Below, in pieces: positions 4,601 through 9,537 of a stretch of 10,244 bases of DNA. The notes under the pieces were generated by a model that did no database searches, was not told the origin of the DNA, and saw only the letters and a program-made list of their open reading frames with translations. The DNA lies in the NCBI GenBank assembly GCA_014523625.1, contig JAATVP010000195.1, positions 1-10,244 on the forward strand. Direction: 5' to 3'. The position numbers and the translations under genes were made by a program. The stretch is from Nitrososphaerales archaeon TH5896 (GTDB lineage Archaea > Thermoproteota > Nitrososphaeria > Nitrososphaerales > Nitrososphaeraceae). Every line of letters begins with the position of its first letter. Positions within the stretch are counted from its first letter, which is position 1.

Positions 4601-4714
4601 GGCAACATTTTCTGAGCACCTTCGAGTGTCAAGTCGAATATTTGCTTTACACGGTAAGTGGCTAACATACGATTATGGCAATGGATTCAATTACACCCGA
4701 GCGAGCGTTACAGT

Positions 4715-4722
4715 CAAATATT
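4715..4722 (+). promoter_or_regulatory. Candidate box A of the tRNA-Gln gene
   Basis: AAATATTA lies about 35 bases before the first base of the mature tRNA. This would put transcription start some 8 bases upstream of it. Weak on sequence alone. Confidence 0.35.
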
Positions 4723-4763
4723 AGTCCTGGTTTATTGATCCATACAGCTCGGAAGCCCGGTCG

Positions 4764-4787
4764 AGCACGTCATAAACGTGTGCCGAA
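4764..4787 (+). other. tRNA intron 1 (24 nt, position 10/11)
   Basis: The bulge-helix-bulge here uses central helix CGGT (4758-4761) with GCCG (4782-4785), a 5' three-base bulge CGA (4762-4764) and a 3' bulge AAT (4786-4788). Its inner hairpin is GCACGT/ACGTGT with loop CATAA. Cutting after the second base of each bulge joins G10 to T11 and restores the D stem. Confidence 0.75.
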
Positions 4788-4799
4788 TCTAGTGGCCAA

Positions 4800-4816
4800 A
4801 CTTACTTGAGGGCTAG
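4800..4816 (+). other. tRNA intron 2 (17 nt, position 21/22, D loop)
   Basis: Central helix GGCC (4794-4797) pairs with GGCT (4811-4814). The 5' bulge is AAA (4798-4800), the 3' bulge AGG (4815-4817), and the inner hairpin is CTT/GAG with loop ACTT. Cutting after base two of each bulge leaves D loop AGTGGCCAA followed by GGAT. Confidence 0.75.
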
Positions 4817-4832
4817 GGATTTCAGGCTCTGG

Positions 4833-4848
4833 ATCTAAAAGAAAAGAA
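4833..4848 (+). other. tRNA intron 3 (16 nt, canonical position 37/38)
   Basis: The outer helix is the anticodon stem. The central helix CTCT (4827-4830) pairs with AAAG (4843-4846) with one C-A mismatch. The bulges are GGA (4831-4833) and AAA (4847-4849), and the inner hairpin is TCT/AGA with loop AAA. Removal leaves the seven-base anticodon loop CTCTGGA. Confidence 0.78.
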
Positions 4849-4891
4849 ACCTGAGGACAGCAGTTCGAATCTGCTCCGGGCTACTCTTCAG

Positions 4892-7596: not shown

Positions 7597-8382
7597 TTAG
7601 TGCCCGTCACTTGTATTCTGGAGAGCTTTTCTCCCAAATATGAGATACGTGGTATGACCTATCATCCTCATCGCCGGCCGTGTCTTTCCTGTCCTGGCTT
7701 CGATGTTCCTTATCATCAATTCGATGGAATCAATGAATACAAAACCAAACTCGGTTAGAGCCGAGGACATTTTTTCTAATTGATTCATTGTAGGGCAAAT
7801 TGCTACGAGGGTTCCACTCGGTCTCAGCGATTCATAAGTCTTCTCCAGCATTGTCCAAGGATCTCCAATATCAATGACAACTAAGTCTACTCTGCCGCAG
7901 TTTGCCTCTTGGAACTGAGTATGATCATAAAAAGTTACAAAATCAGACAGATTTGCTTTCTTGATGTTTTTTTTGGCAATGGCGGTAAATTTTGTGTTCA
8001 CGTCAAAAGTATAAACATGCCCGGAAGGTCTAACGATGCTTGCTAAGTAAGTCGTTAGTCCGCCGCTACCGGTGCCAACTTCCATAACTCGCGAACCACT
8101 CGAGAGACCACACCGTATCCCGATATATGCTAGATCCTTGGGGTACACAATTTGAGTTAACCTTTCTGATTTCATCACGAAATCATACACCAATGGCTCC
8201 AGTAGAATTACCTTCTTTCCCTTAGAAGACAAGAGATGTGAACCAAATTCAGATCCCACTGCTTCTCCTATTTCGATCACGCCTAAATGGGTGTGGAACT
8301 TCTTTCCAGTATTTGCCTCTACCAACCAAGTTTTTTGAAGAGAGTGGTAAAGAAGTACGTATGATCCTTCTTCAATTATCAT
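7597..8382 (-). CDS. trmI: tRNA (adenine-N1)-methyltransferase, TrmI type (m1A57/58)
   Basis: Transfers a methyl group from S-adenosylmethionine to N1 of A58 (and A57 in many archaeal tRNAs) in the T loop. It acts as a tetramer in known relatives. The 261 residues fit the family. The N-terminal 75 residues form the small beta domain. The Rossmann methyltransferase domain carries motif I EVGTGSG (101-107), the acidic residue of motif II at Asp127, and motif IV IDIGDPW (170-176), a variant of the common DLPDPW. The C-terminus RPAMRMIGHTTYL (235-247) is the family signature. The ATG start has a TATA element about 27 bases upstream. The tRNA-Gln in this window has G57 and A58, so only A58 would be a target there. 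Confidence 0.93.
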   Translation of the reverse strand: MIIEEGSYVLLYHSLQKTWLVEANTGKKFHTHLGVIEIGEAVGSEFGSHLLSSKGKKVILLEPLVYDFVMKSERLTQIVYPKDLAYIGIRCGLSSGSRVMEVGTGSGGLTTYLASIVRPSGHVYTFDVNTKFTAIAKKNIKKANLSDFVTFYDHTQFQEANCGRVDLVVIDIGDPWTMLEKTYESLRPSGTLVAICPTMNQLEKMSSALTEFGFVFIDSIELMIRNIEARTGKTRPAMRMIGHTTYLIFGRKALQNTSDGH

Positions 8383-8810: not shown

Positions 8811-8829
8811 CTTGTGTGATATTCAGAAT

Positions 8830-9537
8830 ATGGGTTTAACGAAGGCAGTTTGCATACTTAGCGGTGGATTAGATTCCGTTGTTTCGGCATTTTATATTAG
8901 GCAAATTTGGAACATTGTACCATGTACGATTACTTTTCATTATGGGCAAAGGTCGACAGAGGAGATGAGGAGAGCACGACTATTTTCTACCTTATTGGGA
9001 TCTGAAGTTCATAAAGAGATTGATATATCATTTATGAAGGATCTCTATGGCGACGAAAACACGCTTACCGGAAGAAAATCCCGTATTCCGGGAAGATTTC
9101 ACCAGTCAATCGTCGTGCCACATAGAAACTCGGTTTTTTTGACGATAGGCGCAGCTTGGGCTGCTAGCCTAAAAATTGGTGTTTTAGTGTATGGAGCCCA
9201 TGCTGACGACCATAATTACCCAGACTGCCGACCAAAGTTCGTTAGCTCTGTTGAAAATATGTTAAAAGAATCTGACTTTGATGCCATCGACCTTGGCTTA
9301 CGAAAACGGATCGAAATCTGGTGTCCAGCGAAAGAGAATATCCACAAGAATGAGCTGGTCAAAATTGGGTACGATCTTCTGGGAAATAAGATCTTCGATA
9401 CTTGGAGTTGTTATTCGGACGGATCCCGAAATAGTATAAATGAACCAGCACACTGTGGCACTTGCGAGTCATGCGTCAACCGAAAATCAAGTTTTAAAGA
9501 AGCAAATATTCTAGATAGGACAATATATGCCTCGTGA
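8830..9537 (+). CDS. queC: 7-cyano-7-deazaguanine (preQ0) synthase
   Basis: QueC converts 7-carboxy-7-deazaguanine, ammonia and ATP to preQ0, the base that archaeal transglycosylase inserts at G15 of tRNA on the way to archaeosine. The 235 residues match the family. The N-terminal PP-loop SGGLDS (11-16) binds ATP, followed by FHYGQRS (36-42). VPHRNSVFL at 96-104 and GAHADDHNYPDCRP at 122-135 are typical family segments. The zinc site is Cys194, Cys209, Cys212 and Cys215 (C-x14-C-x2-C-x2-C) with the following NRKSSF. The frame opens at TTG 8812, but ATG 8830 fits both the family N-terminus and TATA spacing. folE follows 96 bases later on the same strand with its own TATA box. The two encode non-consecutive steps of one pathway. 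Confidence 0.95.
   Translation: MGLTKAVCILSGGLDSVVSAFYIRQIWNIVPCTITFHYGQRSTEEMRRARLFSTLLGSEVHKEIDISFMKDLYGDENTLTGRKSRIPGRFHQSIVVPHRNSVFLTIGAAWAASLKIGVLVYGAHADDHNYPDCRPKFVSSVENMLKESDFDAIDLGLRKRIEIWCPAKENIHKNELVKIGYDLLGNKIFDTWSCYSDGSRNSINEPAHCGTCESCVNRKSSFKEANILDRTIYAS

Follow-up and report, generated by a model that had tools for sequence, protein, structure and literature searches.

The window analyzed here, a stretch of 10,244 nucleotides on contig JAATVP010000195.1 of Nitrososphaerales archaeon TH5896, contains on its forward strand an interrupted gene for tRNA-Gln(CUG) at 4754-4883. The draft genome of the host comprises 2.74 Mb in 277 contigs and is 92% complete; the host is presumably an ammonia oxidizer, judging from its family f1 (Nitrososphaeraceae / Nitrososphaerales records). 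A gene for an ATP-type PEP carboxykinase (PF01293; 4892-6493, minus strand) is convergent with the tRNA gene and ends 8 bases beyond it. The same window also encodes proteins matching a GCD14-type tRNA methyltransferase (7597-8382, minus strand) and QueC (8812-9537, plus strand). The parts of the tRNA gene and of its 5' flank are listed in Table 1.

Table 1. Parts of the tRNA-Gln(CUG) gene and its upstream region, in window coordinates
Feature	Position	Strand	Description
Possible TATA-like element TCAAATATTAG	4714..4724	+	Noted by eye; about 30 nt upstream of the leader copy
Leader copy AGCTCGG	4746..4752	+	Copies the 5' acceptor strand; 7 possible pairs with CCGGGCT, one of them G-U
Exon 1	4754..4763	+	tRNA positions 1-10; 4758-4761 is one strand of the intron-1 helix
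Intron 1	4764..4787	+	24 nt, at 10/11; GCCG 4782-4785 pairs with 4758-4761; from empty sites, helix and predicted fold
Exon 2	4788..4799	+	tRNA positions 11-21
Intron 2	4800..4816	+	17 nt, at 21/22; GGCU pairs with D-loop GGCC
Exon 3	4817..4832	+	tRNA positions 22-37; anticodon CUG at 34-36
Intron 3	4833..4848	+	16 nt, at canonical 37/38; identical product from a 38/39 cut
Exon 4	4849..4883	+	tRNA positions 38-73; T arm, 3' acceptor strand CCGGGCT, A73

Joined, the four exons form a 73-nt cloverleaf with anticodon CUG that ARAGORN calls as tRNA-Gln(ctg), which bears out the coordinates and the exon and intron lengths (24, 17 and 16 for the latter) proposed in an earlier, sequence-only reading. 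The stems are an acceptor AGCCCGG/CCGGGCT, a T arm AGCAG-TTCGAAT-CTGCT and an anticodon stem TCAGG/CCTGA around CTCTGGA. That reading had also expected standard gene finders to miss the gene, as is indeed the case for ARAGORN and Rfam. The unspliced 130 nt yields no ARAGORN call, even when introns as long as 60 are permitted, and across the whole window ARAGORN reports zero tRNA genes and Rfam returns nothing at its gathering score; at a loose threshold, the sole Rfam match in the window is a 23.9-bit tRNA in the wrong register. A split or permuted tRNA gene was considered and is ruled out because the parts stand in normal order inside the 130 bases.

Two of the three introns display the bulge-helix-bulge (BHB) motif with two 3-nt bulges around a four-pair helix. 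In intron 1, C5-G6-G7-U8 of the tRNA pairs with GCCG of the intron (CGGU/GCCG), the bulges are CG^A and AA^U, each cut falls after the second bulge base, and the inner hairpin has six pairs; this is a relaxed form of the motif, in which the outer helix is not seen. Its four-pair helix is intact in 33/33 CUG and 52/53 UUG genes tested. The helix of intron 2, GGCC/GGCU, retains its pairing through change, with GGTC facing GACT in two relatives (L048 and L058) where the others have GGCC and GGCT. Read in the 37/38 register, intron 3 has CUCU/AAAG, with three of four pairs formed and C34 opposite A. It thus lies at the canonical position, lacks the full four-pair helix, and is filed here as a relaxed canonical intron; since the 37/38 and 38/39 cuts lead to the same product, they are indistinguishable by sequence. 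The proposal of a four-pair helix at every junction accordingly holds for introns 1 and 2 and fails for intron 3.

The 130 bases were matched in 54 of the 61 genomes searched, the host included, and this conservation, together with exact empty sites, places the gene far beyond chance. The match in the 92%-complete host draft is single, with no second match to the gene. In relatives that lack intron 1 (L064-L068 and L071), AGCCCGGTCG is followed directly by TCTAG. This empty site, GGTCG|TCTAG, is exactly what excision of 24 nt at 10/11 would leave, so that the borders of intron 1 are fixed and the cut originally assigned to it is correct. By eye, a D-arm intron and an anticodon-loop intron are present in all 48 parsed CUG genes, and 35 of 49 distinct CUG genes (the host's own and L351 included; also by eye, with 10/11 status counted separately) carry all three introns. 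To call the three-intron gene rare is therefore an overstatement for this lineage. Conservation of the gene and its introns across the family, along with the persistent pairing of the intron-2 helix, argues for the interpretation as a three-intron tRNA-Gln(CUG), and comparative sequence analysis supports a functional tRNA of this kind as the best reading of 4754-4883. In four CUG genes (L069, L070, L077 and L080), the D-arm intron is located at 24/25, not 21/22, with the helix CAAG/CTTG; it either moved or was separately gained.

Because bases 5-7 belong to both, the intron-1 motif and the mature acceptor stem are mutually exclusive. The sequence-only reading, accurate on the exons and introns of the gene, overlooked this conflict as well as the leader copy (4746-4752), which stands one base 5' of the tRNA and hence outside the coordinates then considered. 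The second Gln tRNA of the host, tRNA-Gln(UUG) (L028, on contig C246), combines a 10/11 intron with a copy as well, AGCCCGG, one A before the gene. Among the 35 host tRNAs parsed, the copy is limited to these two Gln genes; the 33 others, an incomplete set from the first 100 of 106 T-arm matches, have none.

We defined a copy as at least 6 contiguous pairs (score at least 5.5, with G-U at half weight) with positions 66-75, ending no more than 10 nt from the gene; shuffled leaders give a chance level of 4.4%. Among CUG genes, a copy accompanies 34 of 35 with the 10/11 intron versus 1 of 14 without it. Among the UUG loci listed, the corresponding counts are 56/56 and 6/98, and pooling of the loci listed for both Gln tRNAs yields 90 of 91 against 7 of 112. 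For the relatives alone, the counts are 79/80 versus 1/21 (Fisher p 6.5e-19, kinship ignored). The CUG set consisted of 50 loci, with L035 and L063 unparsed, and the UUG set of 50 loci, with L120 and L121 unparsed; at least 118 named loci were listed (8 unparsed), a part of those existing. Two loci with too short a leader (L127 and L150) and one with an unparsed D arm (L176) were excluded before counting, and seven duplicates were merged. Loci that came later were left uncounted, namely L338 (by eye no 10/11 intron, with little leader) and L343, L344, L345 and L350 (no usable gene); L347 and L348 repeat L125 and L124, L339 was swapped for the longer L351, and L352 lies outside the counts.

In Nitrososphaeraceae and in some further families, both Gln tRNAs show the arrangement; for the UUG tRNA, it ranges from Nitrosocaldus to Nitrosarchaeum. 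The intron-bearing named UUG genes listed include those of Nitrososphaera, Nitrosocosmicus, Nitrosarchaeum and Candidatus Nitrosocaldus schleperae; Thaumarchaeota Centralia_MAG_109 (L225) has neither the 10/11 intron nor the copy. Differences within genomes follow the same association: in families f2, f7 and f12 (two genomes each), intron and copy are present in the UUG gene and both absent from its CUG counterpart in the same genome. Likewise, among the four genomes of genus g12, three (L064-L066) have lost the CUG intron and show decayed leaders, and the fourth (L059) retains intron and copy. In one genome (G049), the acceptor strand is AGCCCCG and the copy is AGCCCCG too, in both Gln genes (L072 and L126).

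The two kinds of copy differ in register, those of CUG genes mostly spanning positions 1-6, frequently with GT opposite A73 and C74, and those of UUG genes spanning 2-7. Within the paired stretches, copies depart from the acceptor strand by C to T (39 cases) and A to G (2 cases), all of which keep the pair, an outcome that the test favors. In four g11 genomes (L051, L052, L056 and L062), the trailer starts with TA and the pairing is lengthened by the leader TATAGCTCG; a fifth (L041) has the trailer CT and the leader GTAGCTCG. In the genus of the window itself, the positions opposite A73 and C74 are unpaired. A strict TATA hexamer falls in the expected bin for 17 of 52 UUG copies and 0 of 33 CUG copies, and this spacing supports transcription of the copy in UUG genes only.

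Several genes deviate from the pattern. One (L043) has a 10/11 intron and no copy, and another (L073) has a weak copy and no such intron; the copies of L036 and L039 are imperfect, with a mismatch or an additional base that breaks them. Two CUG genes of family f4 (L067 and L068) carry a copy, GTAGCCCGG, 18-21 nt upstream, and lack the 10/11 intron. An alternative parse, with the first AGCCCGG as the true 5' end and an intron at 7/8, was rejected since, by eye, the 7/8 cut has no four-pair helix, and these copies are for that reason taken as remnants from genes that lost the intron. One of these two genomes (G039) retains both intron and copy in its UUG gene (L337).

Folding models bear on the conflict between motif and stem. 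Without the leader, forcing the intron-1 motif costs a median of 5.3 (CUG) or 4.3 (UUG) kcal/mol relative to the acceptor stem, and the motif form is favorable in 0/33 CUG and 1/53 UUG precursor models (RNAfold). With the leader, the median for the motif form falls to -0.3 (CUG) and -2.7 (UUG) kcal/mol, yet the motif form lies below zero in no more than 18/33 CUG and 44/53 UUG models. In the predicted fold of the window at 4742-4885, pairing between leader and 3' strand occurs together with the intron-1 motif. From these models, we infer that the leader would pair with the 3' acceptor strand before splicing.

Comparison of the sequences establishes the three introns, the helix between acceptor bases 5-8 and GCCG, and a leader copy that accompanies the 10/11 introns of both Gln tRNAs. 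The leader copy probably holds the precursor together while intron 1 is removed, and the reading that we favor, with a probability of roughly 0.65, is a working three-intron tRNA-Gln(CUG) gene whose intron 1 leaves with the help of this stand-in strand. In the primary transcript, the copy would pair with the 3' acceptor strand, such that a cloverleaf-like body is present while the intron-1 motif holds the real 5' strand. The endonuclease would then cut and the ligase join positions 10 and 11; upon excision of intron 1, the freed 5' strand would displace the copy, and RNase P would next remove the leader. Intron 1 is thus predicted to be out before, or together with, 5' maturation. We consider it reasonably probable that splicing is coupled to strand exchange in this manner, with intron-1 splicing having to precede 5' end processing because the leader replica replaces the strand held by the motif. 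One test went against the simplest form of this model: once intron 1 is removed in silico, the acceptor stem wins over the leader pairing in no more than 9/33 CUG and 10/53 UUG models, and secondary-structure energy alone therefore does not account for strand exchange.

Other readings of the copy were ranked below the stand-in strand. It may be a DNA signal, a start-site signal or a protein-binding site that works without pairing; its core letters are conserved and, in UUG genes, it lies near the likely transcription start. Such a role appears unlikely, given that the copy tracks the 10/11 intron and not the promoter, with none among the 33 other parsed tRNAs of the host, that within one genome the Gln genes diverge in the copy in step with their introns, and that the letters of the copy follow the changed acceptor of G049. 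We regard as slightly less plausible still that the copy is a functionless scar, left by the arrival of intron 1 or by slippage. The near-tandem repeat in UUG genes, GCCCGGA then AGCCCGG, fits such an origin, as do the copies that L067 and L068 retain without an intron; against it stand the CUG copies, which across genera differ from the acceptor (T at position 4) with pairing still possible, and the decay of the copies in the three intron-less g12 genomes.

There is also little probability that the copy acts as a decoy that blocks or times splicing by pairing with CCG of the intron. Copies ending in CGG could do so, but in many CUG copies T or A comes after a final CG, and these could not mimic the full four-pair helix; moreover, bases 1-4 of the copy are kept despite having no partner in the intron, and 34/34 CUG copies pair with the 3' strand at positions 1-4, which the test partly requires. 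Finally, the gene could be decayed or remain unspliced, with CAG read by the UUG tRNA that the genome does possess (L028). Relatives, however, conserve the exon stems along with each of the three introns, and the intron helices keep pairing; we accordingly consider decay very improbable.

As machinery for such processing, the genome encodes two endonuclease proteins of PF01974, one RtcB and an archaeal RNase P RNA. On the basis of these genes, we predict BHB intron removal by the archaeal splicing endonuclease and joining by RtcB. Passages of PMC4090602 assign an alpha2beta2 endonuclease to Thaumarchaeota and link it to noncanonical introns, and the presence of two distinct endonuclease genes is consistent with an enzyme of this type.

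As a three-intron gene, the locus belongs to a known sort, since archaeal tRNAs with two or three introns have been published and the three found here are kept in relatives. According to passages of PMC3218864 and PMC4033280, tRNAs with up to three introns occur mostly in Pyrobaculum and Thermofilum. The likeness to the multi-intron tRNAs of Thermoproteales such as Pyrobaculum extends to three introns per gene, canonical and noncanonical sites, and BHB junctions (parts of PMC3218864, PMC4033280 and PMC8450103); the present case differs in that it concerns Nitrososphaeraceae and their relatives and that intron 1 uses acceptor-stem bases and is accompanied by a leader copy, on which those parts of the papers are silent. 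For some Thaumarchaeota, multiple noncanonical introns are stated in excerpts of PMC8450103, and tRNAscan-SE 2.0 has a Thaumarchaeota intron model. This thaumarchaeal set resembles ours in coming from the same broad lineage and in having noncanonical introns, multiple in some species; in the excerpts of PMC8450103, however, leaders are not mentioned.

Another related system is the split tRNAs of Nanoarchaeum and Caldivirga, where base-pairing of leaders enables the splicing motif (portions of PMC4033280 and PMC4090602). There, the leaders of two transcripts pair at the junction, whereas here a single transcript would use its leader to bind its own 3' acceptor strand at a distance from the junction. 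In Methanopyrus kandleri, archaeal pre-tRNAs with D-loop and canonical introns were followed by RNA-Seq, and the ends mature before the introns leave (portions of PMC3695527); for intron 1, the stand-in model predicts the reverse. Within the portions of the open-licence literature covered, no account of an intron-linked leader copy was found, and PMC11782384, which deals with direct repeats near introns, mentions neither archaeal tRNA nor tRNA-Gln. If the pairing is real, the leader arrangement is a new form of BHB intron removal.

Introns near the acceptor stem face a folding problem, in that motif and finished stem compete for the same bases. Should the leader copy solve this conflict, a tRNA intron would depend on sequence outside the tRNA, and the copy would dictate which comes first, splicing or end maturation, in the reverse of the order reported for Methanopyrus. 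Loss of the intron would also be linked to decay of the leader, offering a way of tracing tRNA intron evolution. For gene finders, the copy is an additional cue.

Interrupted tRNAs are apparently not confined to the Gln genes of the host. The scan of its genome with a T-arm pattern (first 100 of 106 matches) revealed further introns in the D loop and the anticodon loop, and six other tRNAs (L005, L014, L029, L275, L308 and L329) seem to have their D loop interrupted or to carry multiple introns. By eye, the tRNA-Gln(UUG) gene of G039 (L337) is itself interrupted by three introns, at 10/11, 24/25 and 37/38, and a three-intron Gln tRNA therefore exists for both anticodons.
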